Positions 8,428 to 32,814 of a DNA stretch of 33,525 nucleotides are shown here, one piece after another. Within the stretch, counting starts at the first letter, position 1, and each line of letters opens with the position of its first letter. The notes under the pieces are model-generated. The model was given only the letters and a program-made list of their open reading frames with translations, made no database searches and was not told the origin of the DNA. The position numbers and the translations under genes are program-made. The stretch lies in the NCBI GenBank assembly GCA_019636815.1, contig JAHBWT010000045.1, positions 1-33,525 of the forward strand. The letters are read 5' to 3'. Origin of the DNA: Nitrospira sp. Lineage in GTDB: Bacteria > Nitrospirota > Nitrospiria > Nitrospirales > Nitrospiraceae.

Positions 8428-8430
8428 ATT

Positions 8431-13582: not shown

Positions 13583-14886
13583 AAGCGAAAGCTCGCCATT
13601 TCGTCACCTTCCGGCGGCGCTCCGCCAACGCTCTCATCGACATCGCTCATGTCTTCGCCGCCATCCGCCCCGACATCGACATCCGACACCATATCCGTCC
13701 ATTTGACGTCGGGGTTCTGCTCGAGAACGGCCAGGAGATTGACGAAGGCGGTAATGGTATTTCTTGGTGTCCGGAAATACGCCTCGCCAATGCGCTCGGC
13801 GCAATGGGACATGAAGGCTTCGAGTGCCGCGTCGGGCAGCGTATCGCCACTACTCTGCATTATCGCTCTTATGTTCGAGAGCAGAATGAACAGGTCTTCC
13901 GGCGTGAGGTTCGCGAGGCGAATGACCGGCCCTGACAGATCGACCAGTCCATCGCGGGCGAAGCTGTTGGCGGCAAGCCGCGTCTGAAGCGCCTCGTAGC
14001 TGTAGAGCCCGCGCCTCGTATTCATCAGGAACTCCGGTGTCCCTCCCATGAGAAAACCGAGATGGCCGGCACTGCCCTGAAGCACGTCGTTCAGAATGCG
14101 GAGGATCTGCTCGTAGTTCGCGTTTCGCGCCTGCGCCGAACTGAGCTTGTAGAGATTGACCATTTCATCCAGGCCAACCAGCAGGCCCTTATAGCCTGCG
14201 GCTTTGACGAATGACGACATGAGCTTCAGGTGGTCATAGACGTTGGCGTCATCGACAATCGTTCGCACGCCGAGCGCCTTGCGCGCATCCGTGCGGGTCG
14301 AAAACTCGCCCCGTAGCCATCGCAGAGCAGAGGTCTGGAGCTCCTCGTCTCCAGCTTCGTGGCCTTCCCAGTAGCGCTTGATGACGGTAGCGAAATCAAA
14401 GCCACCCGTCAGTTCCTGGATATGGGATAGCCGCTCGTGGATGACTGCTCCGGTCGCGAGGTCCCCTTTTTCAGCGTCATGATGTGCTTGGCTGACGAAG
14501 CGCTCGACAACGCTGGAAAGGGCGCCGCCATCCGCCTTTGTTCTCGTTGCCATGTTTCTTGCCATTTCGGCATAGAGACTTCGTGCCTGTCCGCCGGAGG
14601 CGTGAATGCGCCGGTCCGGGGCGAGATCGGCGAACATCGCAACGAGCCCCTTTTCCAGAGCGACGAGCCGGATGAGGTTCATGAAGAAGGTTTTGCCGGA
14701 TCCGTATTCGCCGATAATGAAGCGAATAGTCGCCCCGCCATCCGCGATATGGTCGATATCCTTGACGAGTTGCTCGATTTCCATGGCTCGACCGACCTGG
14801 ATGTGCCGCAAGCCCTGTTTCGGAACGACGCCCGCGCGCAGAGCCTGTACAATTGCGTCGCGCTCTCGCGGTTTAATGTTGACCAT
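13579..14886 (-). CDS. BrxD-like P-loop ATPase (DUF2791)
   Basis: A 435 aa AAA/STAND-type ATPase of the BrxC/BrxD superfamily (DUF2791). Walker A is GEYGSGKT at residues 59-66, preceded by the family's GLRHIQVGRAME segment. A hydrophobic strand ending in GLDE (LLVGLDEMVNLY) supplies Walker B. FLMGGTPEFLMNTRRGLYSY matches the sensor region typical of BrxD (G-T-P-E-F..D..RG..SY). The C-terminal 40 residues are acidic and probably disordered. The ATG at 14886 has AGGGG seven bases upstream; a GTG at 14892 that overlaps the previous stop is the alternative. It sits between the TerB-domain gene and the helicase, overlapping both. In BREX types 2 and 6, BrxD neighbours BrxHI; here no other BREX gene is seen. 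Confidence 0.88.
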   Translation of the reverse strand: MVNIKPRERDAIVQALRAGVVPKQGLRHIQVGRAMEIEQLVKDIDHIADGGATIRFIIGEYGSGKTFFMNLIRLVALEKGLVAMFADLAPDRRIHASGGQARSLYAEMARNMATRTKADGGALSSVVERFVSQAHHDAEKGDLATGAVIHERLSHIQELTGGFDFATVIKRYWEGHEAGDEELQTSALRWLRGEFSTRTDARKALGVRTIVDDANVYDHLKLMSSFVKAAGYKGLLVGLDEMVNLYKLSSAQARNANYEQILRILNDVLQGSAGHLGFLMGGTPEFLMNTRRGLYSYEALQTRLAANSFARDGLVDLSGPVIRLANLTPEDLFILLSNIRAIMQSSGDTLPDAALEAFMSHCAERIGEAYFRTPRNTITAFVNLLAVLEQNPDVKWTDMVSDVDVGADGGEDMSDVDESVGGAPPEGDEMASFRL

Positions 14887-14888
14887 GT

Positions 14889-17243
14889 TCACGCCCCTAT
14901 TTCTTTCTTCAGCGCCGCCGATATGTTCGGCGACACGTCATATCCGTCATATTCATCAAGCAGGGCTTCGTCGTATTTCTCGAAAGCCCATTCATTGAGT
15001 GCTTCGAGGGTGCCGGACGGCATAAGTTCGTGCCTTCCGGAAAGCTTCAGAAATTCCTCTTCCGACCAGTGTTGCCGTTCGATGATCTCGACGACAAGGC
15101 CAGCATGTTTCACGCTCAATCCCGCAAGGGCCGATGACAAAGCGGGCGGTTCGTCCCCGTTGGTATCATTGGGTTCATCGGTCGAGAATATATCGCCCAA
15201 AACCGAGGAAACGCGCTTTGTATCTGACCTGATGGCGGCAATACGCTCCGGGTCTAGCCTGGACATCGCCGAGGAGGGGGCTGTCGGGATGGCTTCTCCG
15301 GGTGCGCCCGGTTCAGCGCCCCGCATGGCAACGGGTCCATCGAGGACGCGCCCGGCATGCAAGTCGCTATAAGCGGCCTTCGGGTCGATGCCCAGGGCTT
15401 TGTAAATTTTCTCTATTTCGGCCACTTCATCGGACTGAACAACGGTATCCGCATGAGCGATGGCAACCACCGCTGCCCGAATTGAAGCTTGTTGTTCGGG
15501 GCTGGCATCTTTCAATTTCTGGCGCAGAAGCGACATGTTGGGCGGCACTGCGATGAGCCAATCGAGATTGGCGAGAAGTCTTTTCTGCTCCTGTTCGCTC
15601 AGCCCTCCCGTGCTGACGATGCGGTTGCGCAACGCAAGGTGTTCGGCGTCGGTGACATCTCCGTCGGCATGGGCGACGAATGTGCCAAGGGCAAGTTCCA
15701 TCAAAGCATCGTGGAACCGGTCGGACACCTCTTCGAGTTGTTCGACCGGTGCGCCAAAATCGAAAATTACGACCGGCTCGCCTACTTTCGGAGCCCGCAA
15801 GGAGAAGCGCGGATCGGGCGCCATACCGAATCCGACGCGAGCAAGCGCATCGGCGGCATCCGTCAGTTGACGCTTGCCTATCTTGCCGCTCTCTCCGCCC
15901 TCGAGTCTGGCGATGACGTCGGTCACCGGCGTAAGTCCGCCTCCTTTAACCCTGGAGCGTGCCCAGGCCTTGAGGTTTTCCAGTTCAGCGGAAGGGAAGA
16001 GTTGACGGAGATCTGCGGGCAGCAGTGCCTGCGCTTCGAGGCTTCCTCTTCCATCCGGCTTGCGCCCGATGAAACGCGAGAATTTGTCCAGCTCGTCCAT
16101 CACCTGGTCAGCGATCTTCTGGGCGATATTGACGGGCTTTTTCAGATTGGAGATGTCGGGTATCGGCTGGCCATCGAGTACGGGACTAAGATCAACATGA
16201 AACTCGCCAGATGCTGCTCGGTAGCTTTCCTTGAGGATTTTCTTCGGTGTCTGAACCTTCAATCCACCGGGGAATTTCTCGTCGAAACGCAGCTTGAACA
16301 GAGCTTTGAATTCTTCGGGGCATCTCGTCGCGGGGGTGCGGAGATTGTGCTCCGGGTGACACATCAGCCAACTGAGCGCCCAATCAGATGAAAGCGTTTC
16401 GCCTGCTGCGACACTGGCGCCCAACGCTACCTTGAGCGAGAGGGGAATTTCCCACCCCGGATTCTTGAAAATTGGTTCCTGAAGAGATTTGTCGTTCAGG
16501 TCCAGCTTCGCGACCTCAATGAAGCTTCCGAGATATCGTCGGGCCGAACCGCTACTCTCATAGAGTTTCTGAAGCCGGAGAACCTCGTCGAGAATTTCTC
16601 TCTTTTCATCATCAGAGGGACGGTCGACCAGGAATCGCCGCTCGAGACCATAGAAATAAAGGAACATGTATCCAGGATTGTACGAGGCATCCGCGCGCCC
16701 TCCTGCCAACCAGTCGAGATAGGTGGCACGGCATTCCGCAGGGATGTCAGAGTATCCCGGCCAGTAGGGCATCGAATTCCCGGCCGCGTCTGTTCCTGCG
16801 TTGGCCACGGGCAGTGAAGGATCTATGTATGCCCGGCACTTGCTGTATCCGCCGGGGCTCAGAAGAGGAGGCGCGCCAACATAGATCATGCCGCCAAGAC
16901 TGCGGCCGCCGATATTGACGACCTCACTTTTTGGCATCCAACCCTTCGGATACTTGTGCTCCATCCAGCCGACATTCCTTCCAACAGCCCCACGGGTCAG
17001 CGGATGAGATCCGCCGCCAGGCACTCTTTCCGGCGAAGGCTTCGGTTCATGCGGCTTTGGATTTTTCCTTGCCGATCGCCGACGTTCACCTGCCCAAACC
17101 AGCAATCCAGGAACAACAAAGGCAAACAGCGCCTGTATCCCATCAGACCAATCTTGAAGGACGGTCACAACGGCAAACATGCAAGCAAAGAAATAGAGGC
17201 CGTATAGCGATGCAAGGCGTATGAATGTCACGGTGAAATCCAA
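14889..17243 (-). CDS. TerB-N/TerB/TerB-C domain membrane protein
   Basis: A 784 aa protein. Two hydrophobic helices at about residues 5-28 and 35-52 with a basic RRRSARK after them suggest an N-terminal membrane anchor with the bulk in the cytoplasm. Residues about 95-390 match the TerB-N domain (starting near GWMEHKYPKGWMPKSE), about 510-640 a TerB-like helical metal-binding domain (ALGTFVAHADGDVTDAEH, then AIAHADTVVQSDE; Asp/Glu pairs fit the family's metal sites), and the last 120 residues the TerB-C domain. TerB domains are known from tellurite-resistance and stress systems, where they are thought to link membrane and DNA-processing complexes. The start is TTG at 17243 without a clear ribosome binding site; a GTG at 17231 is possible. 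It leads the operon with the BrxD-like ATPase and helicase. Confidence 0.85.
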   Translation of the reverse strand: MDFTVTFIRLASLYGLYFFACMFAVVTVLQDWSDGIQALFAFVVPGLLVWAGERRRSARKNPKPHEPKPSPERVPGGGSHPLTRGAVGRNVGWMEHKYPKGWMPKSEVVNIGGRSLGGMIYVGAPPLLSPGGYSKCRAYIDPSLPVANAGTDAAGNSMPYWPGYSDIPAECRATYLDWLAGGRADASYNPGYMFLYFYGLERRFLVDRPSDDEKREILDEVLRLQKLYESSGSARRYLGSFIEVAKLDLNDKSLQEPIFKNPGWEIPLSLKVALGASVAAGETLSSDWALSWLMCHPEHNLRTPATRCPEEFKALFKLRFDEKFPGGLKVQTPKKILKESYRAASGEFHVDLSPVLDGQPIPDISNLKKPVNIAQKIADQVMDELDKFSRFIGRKPDGRGSLEAQALLPADLRQLFPSAELENLKAWARSRVKGGGLTPVTDVIARLEGGESGKIGKRQLTDAADALARVGFGMAPDPRFSLRAPKVGEPVVIFDFGAPVEQLEEVSDRFHDALMELALGTFVAHADGDVTDAEHLALRNRIVSTGGLSEQEQKRLLANLDWLIAVPPNMSLLRQKLKDASPEQQASIRAAVVAIAHADTVVQSDEVAEIEKIYKALGIDPKAAYSDLHAGRVLDGPVAMRGAEPGAPGEAIPTAPSSAMSRLDPERIAAIRSDTKRVSSVLGDIFSTDEPNDTNGDEPPALSSALAGLSVKHAGLVVEIIERQHWSEEEFLKLSGRHELMPSGTLEALNEWAFEKYDEALLDEYDGYDVSPNISAALKKEIGA

Positions 17244-17928: not shown

Positions 17929-18264
17929 TCATTCACACCAGACGATCTTCCCTCCTTTGACCCAGAAGTGGGACTTACACCCTTCGCGCAGCCACACGGA
18001 CGGATGCAGCGATACATGACCTTTCGGATCGACCGAGATATCCCATCGCGGCTTTACTCCTTTCAGCAACATCATTTCGAGGCGCTGGCCGCAGCCGCAG
18101 GGACAGCGCAAGCCTACGGACCAATCCTCGCAGTCATCGCGCGCCATGACGAGACTCCAGAAGGGCAGTCGCTTGGGCAGCATGTCGCCTTCGACAACAA
18201 TCAGTGATCGGCGCGGCGTGAGCCGCACGATCAATCGACGCCACCAGAGAGGCTTGCGGCTCAT
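17929..18264 (-). CDS. DUF6527 family Cys-rich protein
   Basis: A 111 aa protein with the DUF6527 pattern: a basic N-terminus, then RCPCGCGQRLEMMLL (Cys 54, 56, 58), PRWDISVDPKGHVSLHPSVW and CKSHFWVKGGKIVWC (Cys 96, His 99, Cys 110). The clustered Cys and His residues suggest a small zinc-binding fold. DUF6527 genes are repeatedly found beside bacterial E1/E2/JAB genes, and here the ATG overlaps the E1-JAB stop (ATGA), so it belongs to the same operon. Its role is unknown; a substrate adaptor or E3-like part of the conjugation system is speculation. Normal length, intact. Confidence 0.85.
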   Translation of the reverse strand: MSRKPLWWRRLIVRLTPRRSLIVVEGDMLPKRLPFWSLVMARDDCEDWSVGLRCPCGCGQRLEMMLLKGVKPRWDISVDPKGHVSLHPSVWLREGCKSHFWVKGGKIVWCE

Positions 18265-19652
18265 GCTACCCTCCTTTTCACGCCGAGATCGGGCAAGCCG
18301 AGCAACGGCTCGGTCGGGCCGTAGGCTATCGGAAAGCGGTTGCCCGCCGCGAATTGGCGTTCGGCGAAGACATCTTCATCGGCCTCGGCAAGCATGAAGA
18401 TGGCGCGGGCGCGCGCCTCGTTTGGGAACTGACGAAATGGAAACACGCGCGCCAAGAACTCAATAACGCATGCGGACGCGGCACGCATATTCAGGGTGAT
18501 GACGCCGGGAGCTTCCTCGTGGACGCCCCGTAGATAGCCGTCGGCGACCTTCTGGGCGTGTGCTTGCGGCGCAACACGGGCCAGGTATTCGGCCTCCAAC
18601 AGCGCGCCGTCATAGACGCCGCGATCCATCAGGCTCGATCCGCCGGGATAGACGTAGTCCACGCGACCGTAGACTTCCGAGATGCGCCGCCCGCCGTCCG
18701 CTGTCGGCTCGGTCGGGATCGCGACACCGACATCGAACAAGGGCATCGCAAAAAAGGAACTCAGACGGTCGGCGATATGGCGGCCCTCGCCCGTATCGAC
18801 GCAAGAGAAGAGGACGTCGGACGCGCAGGCGGCGAGGACGGCTTCGCGGGTAGCGACGGATTGCGTCACGGGGACCACACCGCAATCCGGCCTGTAGCGA
18901 CGGATGGCGCCGGCGAACATCTCTACCTTGTCGAGACCGATTTCGGCGACGGTCGAATTCAAGATGCGGTTGAGATTGCGTTCCTCCAGCTTGTCGAAAT
19001 CGATCAGGATAATCTCGCCGATGCCCAGCCGCGTGAGCTGCTCGGCAACAATCGAGCCCGTACCCGAAACCCCGATGACGCAGACGCTCAGGCGAGAAAG
19101 CCAACCACGCATCGCACCGGTGAACGCCATCGGCGGACGTTGCGGGCCGTTCGGCGTCGCGCCTTCATTCCACCAGCAGCGCAGGTCCGGTCCGATTTCC
19201 ATCACGAGGTCGACCGGCGTCGCCGTGTGGTCGTCGTGATAAAGGCGCGCGCGCAGCGCGCCATCCGGAATCATGATCGCCGATCCGGCGATCTGGTCGG
19301 TGCCGTGCCGTAAAGCGCACATCAGAACCTTGTCGCTCTCGTCATCGGCGTAGGAAAACTCGTAAAACCCGCCCGGATGCGAGTGGACGGCGATGATTAC
19401 GTCGCCGCGCTGCGTTGCGCGATCGACGGCGGCCTCGACATACTCTCCGGGCCAGGTGAGGACGTTAGGCTTGCGAACGCATGCGTCATGCGGCACGGGA
19501 ATCACCTCCCGTCCAAGCAGCTTGTCGCGCGTCTGGCCGGCGGTCGCGCACAGGAGAAGCGCAGCGGCTTCAAGCCCGTCGCCCGGAAAGAGATGTTGCC
19601 GCAATTGGGTCGCGACTTGGTGCGGCAACACCAAGGTATGGCGCCTATTCAT
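18261..19652 (-). CDS. JAB deubiquitinase-like/ThiF E1-like fusion protein
   Basis: A 463 aa two-domain protein. Residues 1-150 form a JAB/JAMM metalloprotease with a full zinc motif: Glu28, H90-S-H92-P, Ser100 and Asp103 in the canonical HxHPx6SxxD spacing; this kind of enzyme trims or removes ubiquitin-like proteins. Residues about 180-410 form a ThiF/E1-like adenylation domain with GVSGTGS (194-200), LIDFDKLEERNLNR (216-229) and VDTGEGR (285-291), expected to adenylate the C-terminus of a ubiquitin-like protein. No cysteine occurs between residues 284 and 394, so a catalytic thioester cysteine is not obvious. The ATG at 19652 overlaps the UBL-E2 stop (ATGA); the frame stays open further upstream but that part is antisense-like. 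It works with its two operon neighbours. Confidence 0.92.
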   Translation of the reverse strand: MNRRHTLVLPHQVATQLRQHLFPGDGLEAAALLLCATAGQTRDKLLGREVIPVPHDACVRKPNVLTWPGEYVEAAVDRATQRGDVIIAVHSHPGGFYEFSYADDESDKVLMCALRHGTDQIAGSAIMIPDGALRARLYHDDHTATPVDLVMEIGPDLRCWWNEGATPNGPQRPPMAFTGAMRGWLSRLSVCVIGVSGTGSIVAEQLTRLGIGEIILIDFDKLEERNLNRILNSTVAEIGLDKVEMFAGAIRRYRPDCGVVPVTQSVATREAVLAACASDVLFSCVDTGEGRHIADRLSSFFAMPLFDVGVAIPTEPTADGGRRISEVYGRVDYVYPGGSSLMDRGVYDGALLEAEYLARVAPQAHAQKVADGYLRGVHEEAPGVITLNMRAASACVIEFLARVFPFRQFPNEARARAIFMLAEADEDVFAERQFAAGNRFPIAYGPTEPLLGLPDLGVKRRVA

Positions 19653-20455
19653 TGGCCAACCTCGCGGCAGAGCGATTCTTCGACGAGAGCTAGGTGGGTC
19701 GCCAACGTGTCCTGCGCCGGATCCCAGTTCCGATGCCGCGACCATCGCTGAAACTGCTGCCCGGCGATGGTCTCGTGGCTCTGAGTCTGTGGGATTTCTT
19801 CACCGCTACGGCGCGCGAGCGCGGGATGGCAATAGAACATGTCGAGCTGGGCACCGGGATAGCTGGCGGGAACCTCGATCGCGATGTCGGTTGCTTCCGG
19901 GCTGTAGCCCTCCGGAACGTGATAGCCGCGGATGATGAGCCAGCGCCGCCCGGCCTCGATGAAGGTGTCCCAACGCAATCCGAGGCGGTCGAGATGGTCC
20001 TCGTCCTGCGACAGCAGGGCGAAGTCCCTGCGCCGCCCAGCGGACACATCGCCATTATTGATCTGGCGCGGGGTCAGGCGCAGCTTCTCGATCCCCTTGT
20101 GGCGAAGGTCGAGAACGAACGTGAGATCGACCTCCCTTTTCGGTTCGCCCGCAACCTTCAGGATGATGATCCAAGGCGTCTCGGGATTGAACCCGGCCAG
20201 CTTGATGGCGTCGCGCACGGAGAGCTTGGGCTGTGGAACCTCGATTTCCACGCCTTGGACATTCAGCTTCCAGCGGATCACGACACCGTCGTCGTGTTGG
20301 TGCCCGTGTCCAGAACTATGGCCGTGATCGTGCCCGTCGTGAGAACCGGGGTGGTCACTGTCGCGGCCGGTCCCCTCATGGCCGCGCGATTCGCGACGGG
20401 TGCCGGTATGTTCGTGATCGCCACCGGCCGGCGAGTTTGTACTCTCATTGGTCAT
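19649..20455 (-). CDS. Ubiquitin-like/E2 fusion protein (multiubiquitin domain + Prok-E2 family E)
   Basis: A 268 aa protein with three parts. Residues 1-57 are low-complexity and very His/Asp-rich (eight His between 35 and 54). Residues about 58-136 resemble the bacterial multiubiquitin-type beta-grasp domain (VIRWKLNVQGVEIEVPQPKL to LRLTPRQINNG), present once. Residues about 141-268 match prokaryotic E2 family E: YHVPEGYSPEATDIAIEVP, then DMFYCHPAL with candidate catalytic Cys209, and FQRWSRHRNWDP near the end. The UBL has no free C-terminal Gly because it runs into the E2, so it may act in cis or be cleaved by the JAB domain; both are inference. AGGAG lies six bases before the ATG at 20455. 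First gene of the operon, transcribed away from the WYL regulator. Confidence 0.9.
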   Translation of the reverse strand: MTNESTNSPAGGDHEHTGTRRESRGHEGTGRDSDHPGSHDGHDHGHSSGHGHQHDDGVVIRWKLNVQGVEIEVPQPKLSVRDAIKLAGFNPETPWIIILKVAGEPKREVDLTFVLDLRHKGIEKLRLTPRQINNGDVSAGRRRDFALLSQDEDHLDRLGLRWDTFIEAGRRWLIIRGYHVPEGYSPEATDIAIEVPASYPGAQLDMFYCHPALARRSGEEIPQTQSHETIAGQQFQRWSRHRNWDPAQDTLATHLALVEESLCREVGQ

Positions 20456-20506
20456 TTTCAACTCCTTAGCTAATTGTTTCTGGCCACCTTTCGGACTTCC
20501 TGTGAC

Positions 20507-20553
20507 CGTCAGCTTGGAGTTTGCTATCCTGCTACGTCAGATTTGGACGTAGC
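20507..20553. promoter_or_regulatory. Divergent operator between UBL-E2 operon and WYL gene
   Basis: A perfect inverted repeat GCTACGTC-N7-GACGTAGC spans 20531-20553 in the 101 bp gap between the two divergent genes, ending four bases before the WYL start. For the WYL gene a TATCCT at 20525-20530, 18 bp from TGTGAC, abuts it. On the minus strand the palindrome is followed by ACTCCAAGCTGACG (20507-20520). The palindrome, its spacer and this block all recur before the nuclease-helicase gene. WYL regulators such as BrxR and CapW bind inverted repeats of this kind. Confidence 0.75.
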
Positions 20554-20556
20554 CTC

Positions 20557-21582
20557 ATGCGATACGACAAAGCAAAACAAATCCTAGAGCTGGCGCGGGC
20601 ACTCGCGAGCAGCGCCGAAGGCATGACCCTCGACGATATGTGCCGTCTGACCGGCGAAAAACGCCGTACGGTCGAGCGCATGCGCGATACGATTCGCGAG
20701 GTCTTTCCCCAGATGGAGGAGATTCCCGATCATCCGTCGAAGCGATTCCGTATCCCCAAGGGACTGGACGGCTTCTTCCAGGATCCGAACACGGAGGAAT
20801 TGAGCGACCTCGGAGTCGTGATTGCGGACTTACGCGAGAGCAAGGCAACTGCTCGTGGCGAAACCCTGGCATCGTTGGACCGGAAAGTCCGCGCGGCGAT
20901 GCGCCAAGGTCGCCGGCTTGTCACGGAAACCGATGTTGAAGCGCTCTTGCGCGCGGAACTCATCGCCGTGCAGGCCGGTCCCCGCCCAACCGAAGACCCG
21001 GCGGTTCTGTCGGCCCTACGCAAAGCCCTCCTCCAGATGAAGATGCTACGATTCACCTATTACGGAGGCTCGAAGCCGGGAACGAAGCGCGACGTCATCC
21101 CGTTCGGCATCATCTTCGGGAGGATGAACTATCTGATCGCCGCCGATCGAGGGACGTCAAAGCCGAAGAATTGGCGGCTGGACCGGATTGCCGACCTGCA
21201 ATGCTTGGACGAGACGGGCTCTTCCCCACCCGATTTCAATCTCCAGGAATTCGCCAATACGTCCTTCGGGTATTTCGAAACGAAACCCGAAGATGTCGTC
21301 CTGCATGTCCTACCGAGCGGCATGGAAGATTTCAAGAATTACCGATTCCATTCCAGTCAGACCGTTGAAGACCACCCGTCGTCCGGCGGCGCCATCGTGC
21401 GGTTCCGCGCCAGCGGCATGCTGGAACTGGCCTGGCACCTGTTCTGTTGGGGCAACAAGATCGAGATAGTCGAGCCGGTTTCGCTCCGCGAACAATTGAC
21501 GACGGAGCTCCGGGTCGCGCTCGCCCATCACGAAGAGCCGCTCCGTTTCCCCTACGAGCTGCCGCACAAAAAAGGATCATAG
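20557..21582 (+). CDS. WYL-domain transcriptional regulator
   Basis: A 341 aa regulator. Residues 1-70 form a DeoR-like winged helix-turn-helix (LDDMCRLTGEKRRTVERMRD as the recognition region). A helical linker carries on to about 150. Residues about 155-240 match the WYL domain (LRFTYYGG, VIPFGIIFGRMNYLIAA where the namesake WYL would be, then NWRLDRIADLQ with the typical R-x-DRI). A C-terminal extension follows (WCX-type), ending near FPYELP. WYL regulators such as BrxR and CapW repress phage-defence operons and respond to nucleic-acid or infection cues. The ATG at 20557 begins directly beyond the operator; an in-frame start at 20521 would lie within it. By position and shared operators it should control itself, the UBL-E2 operon and the nuclease-helicase. 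Confidence 0.92.
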   Translation: MRYDKAKQILELARALASSAEGMTLDDMCRLTGEKRRTVERMRDTIREVFPQMEEIPDHPSKRFRIPKGLDGFFQDPNTEELSDLGVVIADLRESKATARGETLASLDRKVRAAMRQGRRLVTETDVEALLRAELIAVQAGPRPTEDPAVLSALRKALLQMKMLRFTYYGGSKPGTKRDVIPFGIIFGRMNYLIAADRGTSKPKNWRLDRIADLQCLDETGSSPPDFNLQEFANTSFGYFETKPEDVVLHVLPSGMEDFKNYRFHSSQTVEDHPSSGGAIVRFRASGMLELAWHLFCWGNKIEIVEPVSLREQLTTELRVALAHHEEPLRFPYELPHKKGS

Positions 21583-21591
21583 CCAGACGTC

Positions 21592-21631
21592 CCTACGTCC
21601 AAATCTGTCGTACCAACTCCCTAAGCTGACG
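21592..21631 (+). promoter_or_regulatory. Second copy of the WYL-type operator, before the nuclease-helicase
   Basis: The 23 bases at 21592-21614 match the operator at 20531-20553 (read on the opposite strand) at 20 of 23 positions, including the whole 7-base spacer CAAATCT. The second half-site has two of the three changes. The block ACTCCCTAAGCTGACG at 21616-21631 corresponds to ACTCCAAGCTGACG beside the first site. Both copies point the same way relative to the gene they precede. It lies between the WYL stop and the nuclease-helicase ATG. Confidence 0.72.
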
Positions 21632-21636
21632 CCGCC

Positions 21637-24600
21637 ATGAAATCGCTTTCCGCATCTCGTCTGAATGATTTTCTCGGCTGCCAGCATGCGGTGGCACTGT
21701 GGCTGGCCGGCGTTAAACCGGACGAAGACACCGATGAGATGTTGAAACTCATCCGGGACAAAGGGTTCGAGCATGAAGCCCAGGTGTTGGCGCGGCTGGA
21801 GGCGATGCACGGCCCGGCCGCGAAAATCCCATCGGAAGGGACCCTCGACGAGCGTGTCCGTCTCACGAAGGATGCAATCGATGCGGGCGCGAAGCTCATC
21901 TATCAAGGCGCGTTGTCGCGCGAGCCGTGGCTCGGCTATCCCGACTTTCTCATCCGTCCGGAGGACGCCAATGGAGCCGCGTATCGGCCCGAGGACGCCA
22001 AGCTCGCGCGGCGAGCTAAGGGCGAATATGTCTTACAGCTCGGCATCTATGCCGAACTTCTGCAGGAGATGTATAGCACGCCGATTGGCGGGGGCGCGAT
22101 TCATGTCGCCGCCGGCGATCCCGAGCAGATCGATCTCCGCCGCACGCGTTACATCCTCAAGCGGTTGATGGACCGCTTTGAACGCTTCGTCGCTGACGAC
22201 AAAAGGACGACCAAAGCCGTTCCCTGCGCGGCCTGCGCGCAGTGCGACTACAAGGCGCGCTGCGACGACGAGTGGCGCAAGGCCGACAGCCCCATCTTCG
22301 TCGCCGGCCTCAGCGGCGCCCAACTCACCAAGATGGCAGCGGCGGGCGTGCAGACCCTTACGCAGCTGGCGAAATTGCCCGCGGGGACAAAAGTCGACGG
22401 AATGGGCGTCGAGACCGTCGCAAAATTGTCAGCCCAAGCTCGGCTTCAGCTTGCCGCGCGCGAAAGCGGCAAGCCCGCCTATGAATTGCTGTCCCGCTCG
22501 CGCGGCCGGGGCTTCGCCATGTTGCCCGCGCCCGATGACGGTGATCTCTTCTTCGATATGGAAGGCGATCCCCTCGCCGGGACTGGGATCGAATATCTCT
22601 TTGGCGTCTACGGCCGCCTGGACGGCGCGGCCGAGCCCACGTTCTGGCCGATCTGGGGGCACGACGCAGCGCAAGAGAAAACCGCATTCGAGACCGTCAT
22701 GCGTCTGTTCGTTGACCAGGTGCGCCGTCATCCCAACGCGCACATCTATCACTACGCCGCCTATGAGCCGAACGCCCTCAAGCGCCTAGCCATGCGCTAT
22801 GCGACCATGGAAGCCGAACTCGACCAGCTCCTGCGCGAATGTCGCTTCGTCGATCTCTACCGGGTCACGGTCCAGGCGTTGCGCGCCTCGACCGAGAGCT
22901 ATTCGATCAAGGATTTGGAGGCGCTGTACTGGCGTGACCGCAGCGGCGAGGTGAAAACCGCCGCCGCCAGCATTGTCGAATACGAACGCTGGACCATCAG
23001 CCGCGACGACACGATTCTCGATTCCATCGCGGCCTACAACAAGGACGATTGCGTTTCGACAGACCAGTTGCGCGATTGGCTAGAATCGCTGCGTCCGGCC
23101 GGAGTCGGTCTCGAAGTCGTCGATGAAAGGACGGAGAAACAGGGTCAATCCGAGGAGCGAGCACAGCTAGAGGCACGCAAGCAGGTGCTGGCGGCGGCCG
23201 TTCGCGCTTCGGCGCACGGCGACGGTCGGGTCCGCGATCTCGTCGCCGAGCTGCTGTGGTTCCATCAACGCTCGCAGAAACCGGGCTGGTGGGCATTGTT
23301 CGAGCGTCAGGGATGGTTGGAGGACGAGCTGATCGATGACGCGGAAAGTTTGGGCGGCGTCCAACTCGATCCCGACGTGGCGCCCGTTCCTGTGAAGAAG
23401 TCGACGGACACGACCTACAAATTCCCGCCGCAGGATACGAAGCTCAAGGACGGCGACACGCCCCGTATCGCCGAGACCCTTGGAACCTGCGGAACCATCG
23501 TGGACATCTCGGCTGAGGACGGACGGCTCGTGCTTCGGCGCGGTGTCAAGAGCGCGCCGCTTCCCGAACGGTTCAGCCTGGTCCCCGCACCGATCAATCA
23601 GCAAGGCGTGCCTGATGCCGTGTTTGCTTTTGCCGGCCGTTTCGTTCAAGGCCCTAATTTCTCGGATCAAGCTTTGCTCGACATCCTGATGCGTCGAGCG
23701 CCGCGTTTCAAAGGACGCGCTGCGGGCCAAGCGATCCGTGTGCCCGACGAGTCGCTGACCGACGCGGTGATCCGCGCCGTCATGGACCTTGATCATAGTT
23801 ACCTGTTCATTCAAGGGCCGCCGGGAACCGGCAAGACCTATACGGCGGCGAAGGCCATCGTCGCGCTCTTGCGCGCGGGAAAGCGCGTCGGCGTCTCGTC
23901 GAATTCGCACAAGGCGATCAATAGGCTTCTGAGCGAAGTGGAAGACCGCGCCAAGGACACAAACTTCCGTTTCAGGGGCGCAAAGAAAGGCAACAGGGAC
24001 GACGCCGACACATATTTTGACAGTCTCAACATCACGACCATCATCAAATCTGAGGAGGCCACGCGCGATCATGAATTGGTCGGCGGCACGGTCTTTCATT
24101 TCTGTCGCGAAGATCAACGGGGTGCCTACGACTATCTATTTGTCGATGAGGCCGGACAGGTCTCGCTCGGCAACCTCGTCGCCATGGCGGGCGCGGCGTC
24201 GAATATCGTGCTCGTCGGCGACCAGATGCAGCTGCCGCAGCCGGTGCAGGGCGTACATCCCGGCGAGACGGGTCTGTCGAGCCTGGAATACCTGCTCGAA
24301 GACAAGGCCACCGTTCCCGAAGACTGTGGTATCCTGCTCAACGAGACGCGCCGCCTTCATCCGGTGCTGTGTTCTTTTGTTTCCGACGCGATCTATGACG
24401 GCCGACTTCACGCCCACCCCTCGACGTCTGAGCGCTGTCTCGTCATCCGTCCGGGAGCAGATTCGGTGATTCAGCCGGCCGGACTTTCCTTCGTCTCAGT
24501 AGCGCACGACGGTTGCACGCAATCGAGCCGCGCCGAAGCGAATATGATTGTTCGATTGGTCACGGAACTTTGTCGGCAGAAAATCTTGCGCGGCGGTGAG

Positions 24601-24975
24601 GAAACACCGCTCGCCGTGTCGGACATCATGGTCGTTGCGCCCTACAATTTGCAAGTCAATCTCCTCAAACAGCTCTTGCCTGTAGGCGTACAGGTCGGCA
24701 CGGTGGACAAATTCCAAGGACAACAGGCTGCCATCGTTATTGTTTCGATGGTGACTTCCAAGGGCATCGATGTGCCGCGCGGAACGGAATTCCTGTTCAA
24801 TCCCAACCGCTTCAACGTGGCGATCAGTCGTGCACAGTGCCTTGCAGTTGTTGTCCATGGTGCAGAGCTGCTCGACGGCGCTTGGACGAAGATCGACGAT
24901 CTCCGCCGCCTCAATCTGTTTGCACACGCTGAATCGTTTGCTGCCGCAGGTGTGGATCGGCAGAGCCATCAATGA
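21637..24975 (+). CDS. TM0106-type RecB/Cas4-like nuclease, DEDD exonuclease and SF1 helicase fusion
   Basis: A 1112 aa three-part enzyme. Residues 1-215 form a RecB/Cas4-like nuclease: YPDFLIR (Asp103), PEDAK (Asp120, Lys122), QLGIYAELL, and cysteines 15, 200, 203 and 209 (with 197) placed like the Cas4/AddB iron-sulfur ligands. Residues about 300-500 form a DEDD-type 3'-5' exonuclease (DMEGDP at 307-312, YHYAAYEP, AYNKDDC). The C-terminal half is an Upf1/Dna2-type superfamily 1 helicase: GPPGTGKT (727-734), DEAGQ (837-841), GDQMQLPQ, LNETRRLHP, VDKFQGQQ and NRFNVAISRAQ. All key motifs are intact, so it should unwind and degrade DNA. There is no clear ribosome binding site. It follows the WYL gene with a shared operator in between. 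Confidence 0.92.
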   Translation: MKSLSASRLNDFLGCQHAVALWLAGVKPDEDTDEMLKLIRDKGFEHEAQVLARLEAMHGPAAKIPSEGTLDERVRLTKDAIDAGAKLIYQGALSREPWLGYPDFLIRPEDANGAAYRPEDAKLARRAKGEYVLQLGIYAELLQEMYSTPIGGGAIHVAAGDPEQIDLRRTRYILKRLMDRFERFVADDKRTTKAVPCAACAQCDYKARCDDEWRKADSPIFVAGLSGAQLTKMAAAGVQTLTQLAKLPAGTKVDGMGVETVAKLSAQARLQLAARESGKPAYELLSRSRGRGFAMLPAPDDGDLFFDMEGDPLAGTGIEYLFGVYGRLDGAAEPTFWPIWGHDAAQEKTAFETVMRLFVDQVRRHPNAHIYHYAAYEPNALKRLAMRYATMEAELDQLLRECRFVDLYRVTVQALRASTESYSIKDLEALYWRDRSGEVKTAAASIVEYERWTISRDDTILDSIAAYNKDDCVSTDQLRDWLESLRPAGVGLEVVDERTEKQGQSEERAQLEARKQVLAAAVRASAHGDGRVRDLVAELLWFHQRSQKPGWWALFERQGWLEDELIDDAESLGGVQLDPDVAPVPVKKSTDTTYKFPPQDTKLKDGDTPRIAETLGTCGTIVDISAEDGRLVLRRGVKSAPLPERFSLVPAPINQQGVPDAVFAFAGRFVQGPNFSDQALLDILMRRAPRFKGRAAGQAIRVPDESLTDAVIRAVMDLDHSYLFIQGPPGTGKTYTAAKAIVALLRAGKRVGVSSNSHKAINRLLSEVEDRAKDTNFRFRGAKKGNRDDADTYFDSLNITTIIKSEEATRDHELVGGTVFHFCREDQRGAYDYLFVDEAGQVSLGNLVAMAGAASNIVLVGDQMQLPQPVQGVHPGETGLSSLEYLLEDKATVPEDCGILLNETRRLHPVLCSFVSDAIYDGRLHAHPSTSERCLVIRPGADSVIQPAGLSFVSVAHDGCTQSSRAEANMIVRLVTELCRQKILRGGEETPLAVSDIMVVAPYNLQVNLLKQLLPVGVQVGTVDKFQGQQAAIVIVSMVTSKGIDVPRGTEFLFNPNRFNVAISRAQCLAVVVHGAELLDGAWTKIDDLRRLNLFAHAESFAAAGVDRQSHQ

Positions 24976-25089
24976 CTAAGCGGATCATTCCGAACTCGCG
25001 GACTTGGCCGCTTCTGGCGCATATGTGTCAGAAACAGACATTGGCGATCGCCGTTACATCGAGTTCCTTAAACGAAAGTTGAATGCGCA

Positions 25090-26235
25090 ATGGATTTAGC
25101 CGCGATTGAAGCTCGGGCACGAAAAGCAGTTGGCACGCTCGCACCGGCAGATGCAAACACCGGGTTTTGGGGTAGCCGCTCCAGCGCCGGCCGCTCGCTT
25201 CCGCCGTATTATCTCGTCTACTTCCTTCTGGTGAAGCTCCTGAATTTCAAGGACCTTGGGCGCTTTGAGAAGGTCGCGTTTTCAATTCCGGTCCAGATCG
25301 ACGGCACAATATTGATGGTTGAGTATCGGAAGTTTGGACTCGGCATTTTTGTCAAAGACGCCGCCGACGAAGACGTGGCCGAAGAAGCGGCAAAGTGCAT
25401 CCGTGCGGGGGTGAAGGCTGCACAGCGATATTTTGACACCCTCGCGGACGCAGCGGCCAAGGGTTCGGACCTCAACGTCGAGAATACCGCTCAAGAGCTT
25501 TTCGCGCGTTTCATTTATTTCGCAGGGCGCTACGCGGAGAGTTCGGCGGAGGCGGAGGCGAGGAAGAAAGAACGCGTTGAAACCGAGATGCCGAAGAGCC
25601 AAGACGTCATAAGCGCTGTCACAGTCACATTCCCCTCATATCAGCTTCGCAAGGAGGCCCGCTGGAACGCGACCGCCGCCATCGAAGCCTTCTATAGTTG
25701 GACCGAGCACGTCTTCATTCTGGTCGCGATCCTTCGGGGAAAGATTGCGACGGGCGAGGACGTCGCCAGAGCCGCTGGCGCCGAATGGAAGGAAAAATTC
25801 AAACTCGCGCTGGAGATTTCTAATCCCGACACGAAGCAATTCTATGATCGGCTGACTACGCTTCGGAACCAAGTACGAAATTTCGTGGCCCACGGCGCGT
25901 TTGGGAAGAACGGCCAAGCGCTGAGCTTCCACTCGGTCGTCGGTGCTGTCCCGCTCCTTATGCCCCATCGACAAAGTAAAGAGCATTTCCGGTTTGGGAA
26001 TGGCGTGGATTTCTTGCCGCCGGAAGCTATGCAATTGATCCACGACTTCATCACCCATATGTGGTCAGGAAATTTGTCCCCTGCCAAAATCTACATTGAG
26101 TCTGGCTTACCGCTCATCCTCTCGCACGCTTACGACGGCTCATACGCTCAAGCTATGACTTCGGATGAAGAGATGACGGATTTCACCGACCATTTGAGCC
26201 GTGTGATCGATGACGCGGCGAATATGGATTGGTGA
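25090..26235 (+). CDS. Unknown protein with HEPN-like R-x4-H motif
   Basis: A 381 aa protein, not recognised as a named family. The first 100 residues are mixed alpha/beta (LVYFLLVKLLNFKDLGRFEK, then VEYRKFGLGIFVK); the rest is mainly helical. Around 252-280, YDRLTTLRNQVRNFVAHGAF contains R263-N-F-V-A-H268, which fits the R-x4-6-H RNase motif of HEPN domains at the end of a helical bundle. HEPN RNases are common effectors in abortive infection, but the assignment rests on the motif and helical context only. It lies 114 bp after the nuclease-helicase on the same strand and may share its transcript. No strong ribosome binding site. Confidence 0.7.
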   Translation: MDLAAIEARARKAVGTLAPADANTGFWGSRSSAGRSLPPYYLVYFLLVKLLNFKDLGRFEKVAFSIPVQIDGTILMVEYRKFGLGIFVKDAADEDVAEEAAKCIRAGVKAAQRYFDTLADAAAKGSDLNVENTAQELFARFIYFAGRYAESSAEAEARKKERVETEMPKSQDVISAVTVTFPSYQLRKEARWNATAAIEAFYSWTEHVFILVAILRGKIATGEDVARAAGAEWKEKFKLALEISNPDTKQFYDRLTTLRNQVRNFVAHGAFGKNGQALSFHSVVGAVPLLMPHRQSKEHFRFGNGVDFLPPEAMQLIHDFITHMWSGNLSPAKIYIESGLPLILSHAYDGSYAQAMTSDEEMTDFTDHLSRVIDDAANMDW

Positions 26236-26301
26236 GCGCCGAGTTGTAATCAGAGGGAATGAGATGGGCGATGCAAAAAAACGGAGATATTAGGTGCTGA
26301 C

Positions 26302-27240
26302 ATGACTACGCAGCCAACCGAGCGCATCACGATTGATATGGTCGATCAATCCAAGCCCTTGGCCGAGTGGAAGCAGTCACTGGCAGACTTCGGTCGTCGT
26401 CGTCACTTGAGTTACGCCATGGACTTCGACACCCGGGCATACTTCTTAAAGGACCCGGGAGAGGGGTGGTCAGAGAATGCACGACGCCTCCACCTAGAGA
26501 ATCGAGAACGCGTGAAAGCCGAACTCGCCCAAGAGTTTGGCTCAGACCAGCTAGATCAGAAAATCAAAAATTTCGTCGATATCGGTTCCAAGCAGTTTTC
26601 AGTACTTGCCTATCATAACGAATTCTTTGATCAAACACGCCGCGCCTTCGTCGTTGGGGCATACTATCCAGCACTCGTAAGCGCGTGTGCGCTCGGCGAA
26701 CGGATTTTGAACCACCTGATACTGGACCTGAGGAACTTCTACAAACACACGCCGGAATACAAGCGGGTCTATCGCAAGAATTCCTTCGACAGTTGGCAGG
26801 TTCCCGTTGATACGCTGGAGGCGTGGAAAGTTCTGCTGCCAAAAGCTGTCATCGAGTTCCGGGCGCTCATGGCGCTACGACATCGATCGATACATTTCAG
26901 CGTCAACACCTACGCCACCTCGCGGGAAGATGCACTCGCCGCGATCCATCACATGCGCGAGATCATCGACCAGCAATTCACCGCCTTCGGCAATCGGCCA
27001 TGGTTCATTAAAGGTACGAACGGTCACATTTTCATCAAGCGAGAGTGGGAAGAAAACCCATTCATCAAGACATACTACCTACCCACGTGCCCATTCGTCG
27101 GTCCCTACTTCGCAATCTCTTTCGAGGGAGGGTTGAAGTTCCACGACCACGCCGACTACGGCGACGGCGACTGGACAGATGAAGAATTCGCTATTGCCTT
27201 CGAAGCAAGATCAAGTGAACAACTGATCAAGGTTCGTTGA
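26302..27240 (+). CDS. Unknown protein with HEPN-like R-x4-H motif
   Basis: A 312 aa protein, family not recognised. Residues about 95-230 are a helical bundle (QTRRAFVVGAYYPALVSACA, a following LGERILNHLILDLRNFY, then FRALMALRHRSIHFSVNTY) in which R193-H-R-S-I-H198 fits the HEPN R-x4-H pattern and lies where that motif usually does. The C-terminal 80 residues are beta-rich (NGHIFIKREWEENPF, then CPFVGPYFAISFEGG). AGGTG lies six bases before the ATG. It follows the previous unknown gene by 66 bp on the same strand. Like that gene it may be an RNase effector or a sensor; this is inference. Confidence 0.7.
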   Translation: MTTQPTERITIDMVDQSKPLAEWKQSLADFGRRRHLSYAMDFDTRAYFLKDPGEGWSENARRLHLENRERVKAELAQEFGSDQLDQKIKNFVDIGSKQFSVLAYHNEFFDQTRRAFVVGAYYPALVSACALGERILNHLILDLRNFYKHTPEYKRVYRKNSFDSWQVPVDTLEAWKVLLPKAVIEFRALMALRHRSIHFSVNTYATSREDALAAIHHMREIIDQQFTAFGNRPWFIKGTNGHIFIKREWEENPFIKTYYLPTCPFVGPYFAISFEGGLKFHDHADYGDGDWTDEEFAIAFEARSSEQLIKVR

Positions 27241-27860: not shown

Positions 27861-27959
27861 ATGCATGCTGCGGCACAACTTCGGCGCGGCTATTCCATTT
27901 CCGTCGGACCCGAGCCGCTCTGTGTCGGCTTTACCGCGCCCAAATGTGCCATCGCGTAG
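27861..27959 (+). CDS. Possible 32 aa ORF downstream of the DUF6634-like gene
   Basis: An ATG with GGAGG seven bases upstream opens a 32-codon frame (MHAAAQLRRGYSISVGPEPL at the start) that runs antisense into the 3' end of tniQ. It follows the previous gene by 27 bp. It may be a real small gene, or the front of a gene truncated when sequence to the right was replaced. No family is recognised. Confidence 0.3.
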   Translation: MHAAAQLRRGYSISVGPEPLCVGFTAPKCAIA

Positions 27960-29695
27960 TCGTAGACGGACCGCCGTGCAGCTCTTCGTCCGGCGCCGCA
28001 GCCTTCCGAACGAATTTTTCGTTCCCTGGCCAATTGCACGATCGTACCGGGCGAAGTTCGCAACAAGGTTGCGGCATCGTTGTATGTCATGAGCAAGGGG
28101 GATTCCCTGAGTTCGGGAAGCACAATATTTCCGCTGATCTTTGCCTCGAACTGCTTTCGTCGCACCAGCAATGAGTCAATGAACGACGCCGACGGATCCT
28201 CGTGTCGTGAGACGTTTAAATCGCCCTTCAATATGAAGTCTATTGCCATCGTCCATGGCGATACAGGGACAGACGAGCAATCAACGGCCTTTCTCAGGGA
28301 CACAATATCTTCGTCGTCACAGTTCATCGGGGTACACCGTGCCAGAAGCCCGTCCTTGAGAGCAGTCACGGACTCCACTTCTATGAAACCCTTTCGGGGA
28401 TTCATGATCCTGGTCTCGGATGTAAGGAGCTTCAGATGTCCGAGTTCGAGCAGGTCCCAGACTGCATGCTCGGGAATCCCGATGCACTGCATCGCTTCCG
28501 ATACGTCGAGCGCCTCCTTCATCTTCTGTAGCCATCGGAGCAGGTCTGTCTCGTGCAGCAGGCTCGGTGACCTTTCCCCGCGCTCGTGAGTAATCCTCCG
28601 GACTTCCGGAGAACGCGAGGCCTGTTCAACAGTCCAGCCCGTGAGCTTGTACTTCTTCCTGGCTTCGATTGACGGCAGCCAGCCGGGTCTGTGCCACTCC
28701 GCACTGCTCCCGATGGGCCTCAAGGCGATCACGCCGTTGCGCGCATAGCTGTCGGTGACCACTCTCCTCAGAACCTTTGCCAGATCGGCATTCACCGGCA
28801 TGAGATGCGCAGCGACAGGACCAAGTTCCTCGATCATGCCATAGCCTGCATCCTCTTTCGGGATAGCAAGCTGTGCGTTGACGATCTCATATGCGGAATC
28901 AGGCCAGTTCCCGATACGCTCAAAGCCCATGCGCCACATCTCTAGAGACGGTGCGCTTGCTCTGTTCATTTCATAAAGCGCAGCATGAACCTGCTTTGGC
29001 GACCATTCGAAGCGGGAGGCCAGAGCGAGAGCCAGACAAAGAAGATCGACATCGACCAATTGACGCAGGTCCTCATGAAGCGAGGCCCGTATCCATGTCG
29101 CGGCGTCGCCGTTCAACACGAGGTCTGAAATCAGTCGAGCTGTGTCTTTCTCACTGTCGGAGACATATTCCGCGTCCTGCTCACGGACATCCGCTCCGCA
29201 ATGCTCGCAGGTATGGATGCCCGCCAGTTTTTCCCAGCCGAAGCTCTTGTCGCATGACGGGCAGTGGCTAAGAAGATACTGGAACGATTCCGGACACCAT
29301 TGGAGAAAACGCAATTCCCAAGCCGCTCGATGATGTGCCGATACGCGGAGGCTCTCCGGGGACAGGCGCCTTATCTTCGACTCCCGGCATCTCAATGCGA
29401 GGTGTGAGCCGAAGAATTCGATTTCAGCGCCTAAACCCGCAACTTGCCTGTCCATCCGCTTATAGAAGAGCGGCCGAAGCTCGTCCGCCATGGCACCAAT
29501 GAGATGGGCCAGGTCATTGCAGAAAGCGGAATGACGCGTCGCAACGCTCCCGAGGCGTGCTATCGGCATGCCCAGATGGGAGAAGACGTGGGCCGGGCTC
29601 GTGATCAGATTCTCATTGGCAGCCCGGGCGATAAGACCTGCGAGACTTTCTCCCGTCAACGGAGAAACCGGCACGACAAACTTTGGCAAGCTCAT
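27890..29695 (-). CDS. tniQ: TniQ-family transposition target-selection protein
   Basis: A 601 aa TniQ/TnsD-family protein, the component that selects the target site and passes it to the TnsC-like ATPase. The N-terminus has the TniQ pattern PLTGESLAGLIARAANENLI. A zinc finger follows: C145-P-S-C148 and C163-E-H-C166. The middle is helical with a repeat-like winged-helix build, and the last 60 residues (MTYNDAATLLRTSPGTIVQL) form a helix-turn-helix like MerR/excisionase domains, suggesting its own DNA recognition. It is longer than the short CRISPR-associated TniQ, closer to TnsD-size proteins. The ATG overlaps the tniB stop (ATGA). It is the only TniQ protein seen in the window. Confidence 0.9.
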   Translation of the reverse strand: MSLPKFVVPVSPLTGESLAGLIARAANENLITSPAHVFSHLGMPIARLGSVATRHSAFCNDLAHLIGAMADELRPLFYKRMDRQVAGLGAEIEFFGSHLALRCRESKIRRLSPESLRVSAHHRAAWELRFLQWCPESFQYLLSHCPSCDKSFGWEKLAGIHTCEHCGADVREQDAEYVSDSEKDTARLISDLVLNGDAATWIRASLHEDLRQLVDVDLLCLALALASRFEWSPKQVHAALYEMNRASAPSLEMWRMGFERIGNWPDSAYEIVNAQLAIPKEDAGYGMIEELGPVAAHLMPVNADLAKVLRRVVTDSYARNGVIALRPIGSSAEWHRPGWLPSIEARKKYKLTGWTVEQASRSPEVRRITHERGERSPSLLHETDLLRWLQKMKEALDVSEAMQCIGIPEHAVWDLLELGHLKLLTSETRIMNPRKGFIEVESVTALKDGLLARCTPMNCDDEDIVSLRKAVDCSSVPVSPWTMAIDFILKGDLNVSRHEDPSASFIDSLLVRRKQFEAKISGNIVLPELRESPLLMTYNDAATLLRTSPGTIVQLARERKIRSEGCGAGRRAARRSVYDYAMAHLGAVKPTQSGSGPTEME

Positions 29696-30633
29696 GCCGT
29701 CAACCTCTGCGTTTGTGTCTTGAACGGGTTTTGGGTAGCGAAGCCGCTCGACACCGCCCAGTCGTCAGTAGCCTTCACGAAATCGCATCTTTCAAGTGAC
29801 GCACCGCCCCGTGAGTAGCAGCAGATAAGTGCGTGATAGACGAGGTGCGAGGCTATCCCGATAACGCCGCCGGAGACCTCATACAGGCACGCAGGCACAT
29901 TACCTTCAAGGAGACCGTTCCTCGCATCTGTGACCTTCTCCTTCAGCATCAGATCGTCCAGACGTCCGATGAAGCCCAGGAACATCTCCCTTTCGGAGTT
30001 GTTCTGCATATCGAGCGGTCCCATGGGGACTGGACTGATGCACCTCCTTGCGAGCTGGCCACCCTTCTCAAAGAGAACGGCCGCCTTCTCGATACCGCTC
30101 AGAACGAGACAACAAGTCTTGTCATTCAGGATGTTCTTGAAGAGCTCTGCAACATCCCAACGAACCTTGTTAGTCTCGGCGCTGATCAGGTGATGCACCT
30201 CATCGATAATCAATAACTCGACGCCGCATTTGCGGATAAACGCCTGGGTCCGCTTTTCGAGCTGCTGCTGAGTGCCTCTGGCGAAATTCGGATCGCCGAA
30301 TCCCTTCAGGACGTCGGCGTAGAACCCCTTGACGGTGACATTCGTAGAGAGATTCACGACCACAACAGGCGAAATTCCCGGCGGGTACTGCTCCTTCTGA
30401 ACTTTCTTCTGGTAAGCGTTGATGATGCGGGTCTTTCCGCTTCCCGTTGGCGCTATGAGCGGCAAGGCGGACAGGCTGGTGATATCGAGCGCATCGGAAG
30501 GTCCGAGGTTGTGCACCGCCTGTGCCTCGGCACGCAGAAAATCGAACCTCTTGAAGACCTCATTCATTCGAGGATAGCGAATGGTGATCGCCTTGAAGCG
30601 CATCAATCGGGCATGTTGGTGATTATCAATCAC
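29692..30633 (-). CDS. tniB: TniB/TnsC-like AAA+ transposition ATPase
   Basis: A 313 aa AAA+ ATPase that links the target selector TniQ to the transposase. Walker A is APTGSGKT at residues 61-68 and Walker B is LLIIDEVHHL around 140-149, followed by the sensor region KTCCLVLSGIEKAA. Length and motifs are typical of TniB. The GTG at 30633 is chosen: it overlaps the tniA stop by eight bases and has GAGGG upstream; an ATG ten codons in (30603) is the alternative. Second to last in the tnsA-tniA-tniB-tniQ operon, overlapping both neighbours. Confidence 0.92.
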   Translation of the reverse strand: MIDNHQHARLMRFKAITIRYPRMNEVFKRFDFLRAEAQAVHNLGPSDALDITSLSALPLIAPTGSGKTRIINAYQKKVQKEQYPPGISPVVVVNLSTNVTVKGFYADVLKGFGDPNFARGTQQQLEKRTQAFIRKCGVELLIIDEVHHLISAETNKVRWDVAELFKNILNDKTCCLVLSGIEKAAVLFEKGGQLARRCISPVPMGPLDMQNNSEREMFLGFIGRLDDLMLKEKVTDARNGLLEGNVPACLYEVSGGVIGIASHLVYHALICCYSRGGASLERCDFVKATDDWAVSSGFATQNPFKTQTQRLTA

Positions 30634-32794: not shown

Positions 32795-32814
32795 CGGTAT
32801 CGCTCCCTATGTAC

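Follow-up and report, generated by a model that had tools for sequence, protein, structure and literature searches.

A Nitrospira Bub operon and nuclease-helicase gene with a predicted DriD-type switch in common

DriD from Caulobacter crescentus is a transcriptional activator that is triggered by single-stranded DNA (ssDNA) and that binds the box ATACGAC-N7-GTCGTAT (PMC12340889). Its boxes overlap the -35 element and lie at one distance from the -10 element of weak promoters, and they serve scattered chromosomal genes (didA, bapE, recJ, and dnaG). At its own locus, the target of DriD is the operon divergent from driD, and driD itself is not activated (PMC12340889). Among other WYL regulators, CapW represses its operon (PMC9122588), and BrxR, from the pEFER defence island, is a demonstrated repressor with one box before its own gene (R-BOX1) and one before the defence genes (R-BOX2, before brxA); its boxes have 11-bp arms and a 5-bp spacer (PMC9122601).

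Bub operons are widespread, and no phage-protection function has been demonstrated for them (PMC13373217). An adjoining WYL regulator has already been reported for many of them, and in 219 of 544 cases the operon comes with CapW or with CapH+CapP (PMC13373217). In the literature that we searched, we found no function for the TM0106-family nuclease-helicases, and no DriD-type regulator that is dedicated to a Bub or TM0106 cassette.

Here we describe a locus from Nitrospira sp. in which a DriD-like regulator gene lies between a Bub operon and a gene for a TM0106-family nuclease-helicase. We analysed 33,525 nucleotides (contig JAHBWT010000045.1), which we call the window. We propose that a DriD-type, ssDNA-triggered activator drives both the Bub operon and the nuclease-helicase via two boxes, and that the five genes make up a single mobile cassette that regulates itself. 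Judging from sequence comparisons, we think that this reading is probably correct.

Genes of the cassette

The ubiquitin-like operon is on the minus strand and has three genes. The first (19649..20455) encodes a BubA-BubB fusion of 268 amino acids, with a His-rich leader, a ubiquitin-like domain, and an E2 domain (Prok-E2_E). The second (18261..19652) encodes a BubCD-like protein with JAB and E1 (ThiF) domains, and the last (17929..18264) encodes a DUF6527 protein of 111 amino acids. The start codons of the second and third genes overlap the preceding stop codons by 4 nucleotides in both cases (ATGA for the second gene). In comparisons with solved structures (PDB 9EA4, 9EAV), the fusion protein matches Citrobacter BubA (E = 4e-20) and BubB (E = 1e-32), and the JAB-E1 protein matches BubCD (E = 7e-133). 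By gene content, with BubA, BubB, and BubCD in one operon, this is a Bub operon; the assignment is based on the names of the PDB chains. It differs from the known Bub operons in the fusion of BubA to BubB with a His-rich leader, in its DriD-like regulator, and in the TM0106 nuclease-helicase, which carries the same box. The leader, HDHGHSSGHGHQHDD, opens the fusion protein (window 20295-20455) and is also His-rich in the Bradyrhizobium relative described below.

The nuclease-helicase gene (21637..24975, plus strand) encodes 1112 amino acids: a TM0106-family RecB-like nuclease fused to an SF1 helicase (Pfam RNase_H_2 and AAA_11/AAA_12). It matches TIGR03491 with 254.6 bits, which is well above the curated cut-off of 97.45. 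Like other TM0106 proteins with a DNA2/UPF1-type helicase, it matches over its full length, and in this family a WYL gene is often adjacent and divergent; what sets the window's protein apart is its grouping with a Bub operon.

Between them is the WYL gene (20557..21582, plus strand). It encodes a DriD-type regulator of 341 amino acids with a wHTH domain, a three-helix bundle, and the WYL and WCX domains (Pfam WYL and WCX). After the literature search, we initially read the locus as CBASS-like or BrxR-like repression; we dropped this reading after a search of the PDB pointed to DriD. The closest solved structures are those of DriD (PDB 8TP8, 9PFQ; phmmer E = 7e-100), and the two proteins align end to end, with 50.9% identity over 322 amino acids, so the window's protein is a full-length homolog of a homodimeric WYL activator. 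A profile of the family matches DriD with E = 1e-108 and BrxR only weakly (4e-5 to 1.5e-4, over part of the WYL domain), and the single WYL sequence had no match to BrxR or CapW at E = 0.01. Thus, a close relationship to BrxR or CapW was not found. Among the residues by which DriD contacts RNA polymerase, A20, E21, D71, F74, R120, and E128 are kept in the window's protein, and G18S, R121L, R122V, and P125T are changed; the last three changes count against our reading. A scan of viral contigs with the WYL protein found nothing.

Two boxes and the family motif

Site 1 (20531..20553) lies between the WYL gene and the Bub operon, 3 nt from the WYL start codon and 75 nt from the Bub start codon. 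Its sequence, GCTACGTC-AGATTTG-GACGTAGC, is perfectly palindromic, with two 8-bp arms that flank a spacer of 7 bases. Site 2 (21592..21614; CCTACGTC-CAAATCT-GTCGTACC) is 22 nt 5' of the nuclease-helicase start codon. On the minus strand, site 2 reads GGTACGAC-AGATTTG-GACGTAGG, with 3 mismatches to site 1 in 23 positions and an identical spacer. So, the original prediction of a palindrome that recurs with 20 of 23 positions and the 7-base spacer conserved holds, as does its statement that the two copies have the same orientation relative to the downstream genes.

These two sites are the sole matches in the window with 3 mismatches or fewer, and none of 100 dinucleotide-shuffled windows contained such a match. 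Across the window's own genome (4.01 Mb), nothing else matches TACGTC-N7-GACGTA with one mismatch or none, and nothing else matches TACGWC-N7-GWCGTA exactly. Both are placed before the putatively regulated genes and fit the DriD-type box (A)TACGAC-N7-GTCGTA(T) if A or T is allowed at one arm position. With W at that variable position, both sites match the published DriD consensus at 12 of 14 positions and rank highest in the window; in 60 shuffles, the second-ranked place never reached 12/14. By the strict consensus, the two sites match at 10 and 11 of 14 positions.

A scan of genome contigs with a nuclease alignment yielded a sample of at least 80 related loci. One of these, from a metagenome-assembled genome of Bradyrhizobium (L039), has the five genes in the window's order, and the proteins are 70–76% identical. 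At the DNA level, the similarity (72% identity) covers window positions 17962 to 24935 only, and the Bradyrhizobium cassette sits in a different island. It has TGCGTC-AGATTTG-GACGTA before the WYL gene (6900-6922) and TACGTC-CAATTCT-GTCGCA (CCTACGTCCAATTCTGTCGCACC) before the nuclease gene. Site 1 is 75 nt from the start codon of the ubiquitin-like gene in the window and 74 nt in Bradyrhizobium, and both intergenic regions have drifted outside the boxes. An integrase-like open reading frame, recognized by eye, adjoins the Bradyrhizobium cassette (L039 3020-4378).

We examined 77 regions upstream of nuclease genes, including the window's, of which 35 are from loci with a related WYL gene (many adjacent and divergent). 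From 22 non-redundant upstream regions of WYL-linked loci, with the window and the Bradyrhizobium locus excluded, we obtained the de novo motif cCAtGACAGat.cTGTCACCc, whose log-likelihood was 188.6, compared to 73–84 in three shuffled sets. A motif model was needed because most members have short, asymmetric arms; perfect inverted repeats of 5 or 6 bp in the family's promoters showed no excess at a spacer of 7. The motif's best match in the window is at 21593 (site 2) and the second-best is at 20532 (site 1), and in the Bradyrhizobium locus, that locus's two sites also rank first and second. The window's sites score 14.6 and 13.2, while most members score 20–26, and 16% of shuffled windows reach 14.6, so no proof comes from the score by itself. 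It comes from the rank: of about 67,000 placements, the top two are exactly the sites that had been named in advance. Just a few of the 42 nuclease promoters with no detected WYL gene have a site. The third-best match in the window (25023..25043; score 11.9) is 47 nt before a gene of no assigned family at 25090, and we rejected it as part of the system, as 48% of shuffled windows reach its score.

The two sites are real and conserved beyond chance, because the Bradyrhizobium relative has both sites as well as the same order of five genes. This search for the motif at the same genes in relatives, which the original prediction had proposed as a check, came out in its favour, with paired sites in Bradyrhizobium and both window sites at the top of the family motif's ranking. 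The de novo motif, the conservation in a relative with 72% identity, and the match to the DriD box all support both sites as predicted binding sites of the WYL family.

Not everything around the boxes is conserved. The original prediction also described an adjacent block (ACTCC..AAGCTGACG) as kept at both sites. The 9-mer AAGCTGACG is indeed near both (20507-20515 on the minus strand and 21623-21631 on the plus strand), but it has a third copy at 31397, its distance to the palindrome differs by 7 nt between the two sites, and Bradyrhizobium, the closest relative, lacks it beside site 2. At site 2, the block (ACTCCCTAAGCTGACG, 21616..21631, plus strand) overlies the predicted -10 element. We rejected it as a conserved element because it is not conserved in Bradyrhizobium.

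The 9-mer and the identical spacer could be taken to mean that a segment with the site and the block was copied recently, in which case the repeat would not imply shared regulation. We consider this very unlikely. Both sites were already present in the Bradyrhizobium locus, at 72% DNA identity and with the similarity confined to the box, which largely refutes a recent copy. Also, across the family, the two outermost spacer bases on either side (A at -3, G at -2, Y at +2, and T or G at +3) are informative, those at the centre less so. The recurrence of the same spacer bases in distant genomes speaks against duplication; the identity of the spacer, for which the original prediction had suggested promoter duplication or a binding mode that reads the spacer, is better explained if the half-site extends two bases into the apparent spacer on each side.

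Promoter geometry and the direction of control

Where the boxes lie relative to -10 elements bears on how the regulator might act. Among 25 non-redundant family loci, 14 have TA at +19 from the box centre in the direction of the nuclease gene. At any other offset, TA is found in at most 5 loci, and the maximum in 2000 circular-shift controls was 8. In the direction of the WYL gene, the same 25 loci gave no signal. The alphaproteobacterial -10 consensus GCTANAWC fits the family best with its G at +17 from the box centre. Matches to the -35 element at the expected place average 1.68 of 6, which is below the 2.71 at random positions. Thus, the family's box is at a fixed distance from a putative nuclease-facing -10 element and replaces a recognizable -35 element, which is the geometry of DriD-type promoters.

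At site 2 the window has this spacing to the -10 element: the predicted -10 element of the nuclease-helicase promoter, CCTAAGCT (21620..21627, plus strand), starts at +17 from the centre of site 2, and its TA falls at +19/+20. In Bradyrhizobium, CA replaces TA at +19 of site 2. At site 1 there is no -10 element at the standard offset of 17; on the Bub side, a weak candidate, GCAAACTC (20517..20524, minus strand), matches GCTANAWC at 5 of 7 positions at +18 only, and the corresponding candidate in Bradyrhizobium matches at 4 of 7. In the other direction, no -10 element is possible between site 1 and the WYL gene because the WYL start codon is 3 nt away. Reading the sequence just upstream of site 1, we noticed GTGACC-N17-TATCCT (20502..20530, plus strand), which is a candidate for the WYL gene's own promoter; GTGACC and GCTA are conserved in Bradyrhizobium. 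A consensus promoter scan of 20400-21700 found no sigma-70 promoter, and did not list this candidate either.

The mechanism that we propose starts with the appearance of ssDNA, due to DNA damage or phage replication, upon which the WYL activator would bind both boxes. It would then bring RNA polymerase to a pair of promoters, each with a -10 element but with no usable -35 element. Site 2 would drive the nuclease-helicase gene and site 1 would drive the divergent Bub operon (the BubA-BubB fusion, BubCD, and DUF6527). The WYL gene probably has its own constitutive promoter and would not be activated through site 1.

We also considered that site 1 might tune only the WYL gene and that the Bub operon might have its own promoter, so that only site 2 would act on one of the other genes, the nuclease-helicase. 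This would fit with the position of site 1 (3 nt from the WYL start codon and 75 nt from the Bub start codon), with the lack of a -10 element at the standard offset on the Bub side, and with the majority of relatives, which have the WYL and nuclease genes without ubiquitin-like genes. But at DriD's own locus, the divergent promoter is laid out in the same way and acts for the divergent operon alone (PMC12340889), the distance from site 1 to the Bub start codon is kept in Bradyrhizobium, and downstream of site 1 there is no room for a -10 element on the WYL side. We view such split control as unlikely, and co-control of the Bub operon and the nuclease-helicase as likely.

A second question is whether the regulator activates or represses. 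The WYL protein might act like BrxR or CapW, blocking both promoters and its own at rest and leaving upon binding ssDNA. The layout is like that of R-BOX1 before brxR and R-BOX2 before brxA (PMC9122601), CapW represses its operon (PMC9122588), and CapW or CapH+CapP accompany those 219 of 544 Bub operons (PMC13373217). Site 1 also overlies the predicted start of the WYL transcript, so that binding there would block transcription, and a fixed distance to the -10 element would suit a repressor that covers a -35 element, too. On the other hand, sequence groups the WYL protein with DriD, and BrxR is a distant match by the E values above; BrxR boxes have arms of 10–11 bp and 5-bp spacers; and there would be little basal activity to repress because the family's promoters lack a -35 element. 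Overall, we find the repressor model doubtful, and DriD-type activation appears to be the more likely mode. The original prediction's term "operator," in the sense of a repressor's site, does not fit with a DriD-like protein whose family has promoters without a -35 element and a box at DriD's distance from the -10 element. We infer that the protein binds the boxes, that ssDNA is the signal, that the mode is activation and not repression, and to which side site 1 acts, and likewise what role the cassette would have against phage or damage.

The cassette as a unit

According to the original prediction, the WYL regulator controls the ubiquitin-like operon, itself, and the nuclease-helicase as one system. 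The idea of one unit gains support from Bradyrhizobium and from two loci from Rhizobiales (L034 and L091), in which one DriD-type box is followed by genes for the nuclease, a ubiquitin-like protein, a PRK06153 E1, and DUF6527. Self-control is the least supported claim and we see no support for it, because what DriD activates is the divergent operon, and not its own gene.

Ubiquitin-like genes are near the nuclease gene in 6 of 88 related loci, and they are of more than one type. In Phenylobacterium (L031 5594-12327) and Caulobacter (L044 4675-11324), genes for a ubiquitin-like protein, E2, E1, DUF6527, a ClpP-like SDH-type serine protease, and the TM0106 nuclease-helicase are all on one strand, with no DriD-type gene. 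These operons possibly encode a system for ubiquitin-like tagging plus a protease. Together, the gene arrangements in L039, L031/L044, and L034/L091 support a functional coupling. In two other loci (L036 6058-9642 and L037 6053-9636), relatives of the Bub operon are accompanied by a helix-turn-helix gene upstream and by a gene for an ImmA/IrrE or DUF955 protease; their control looks like the CapH+CapP type.

Among the loci listed, Bradyrhizobium is the only close relative with the whole cassette, and no other full cassette turned up when we searched about 270 genomes from the class and 396 from the phylum. Most relatives have the WYL and nuclease genes but lack ubiquitin-like ones; probably, then, the nuclease and its regulator form the core, to which Bub was added as a partner.

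A Shango-type set (SngC, SngB, and SngA by PADLOC models; window 11411-17243) adjoins the Bub operon on its far side and is encoded on the same strand. We left the Shango genes out of the unit as they are absent from the Bradyrhizobium locus. At window 27890-33492 are genes for TniQ, a TniB/TnsC-like protein, a Mu-type transposase (TnsB-like), and a TnsA-like endonuclease; it seems that a Tn7-like element carries the cassette and Shango as cargo. At the cargo's other end (window 7243-11100), a gene for a calcineurin-like phosphoesterase precedes one for a large AAA ATPase, and the two make up an SbcD/SbcC-like pair. Two proteins at window 25090-27240 have no family match and each contain an RX4H stretch (RNFVAH and RHRSIH), which might be a HEPN-type nuclease motif.

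Of the described systems, DriD is like this cassette in its regulator (51% identical), in the arms and 7-base spacer of its box, in having a box before the divergent operon beside the regulator gene, and, for the family's promoters and site 2, in the fixed distance to the -10 element in place of a -35 element. DriD's targets are scattered on the chromosome; here, exact boxes are found only inside the five-gene cassette. Also, one arm position varies (A or T) and three polymerase-contact residues differ.

A switch that is common to Bub and a nuclease-helicase, that is kept in a relative, and that is repeated where a second type of ubiquitin-like operon lies behind one box points to the pathway in which Bub may work. 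We speculate, tentatively, that Bub and the nuclease-helicase act in one pathway under a private DriD-type activator; for example, Bub might modify or license the nuclease-helicase or DNA-bound targets. If that were true, Bub would have a DNA-processing partner. The locus also suggests that members of the family of DriD, which in Caulobacter regulates the chromosomal response to DNA damage, may serve as local switches of mobile defence-like cassettes, and that these would activate their targets, unlike the repressors BrxR and CapW.
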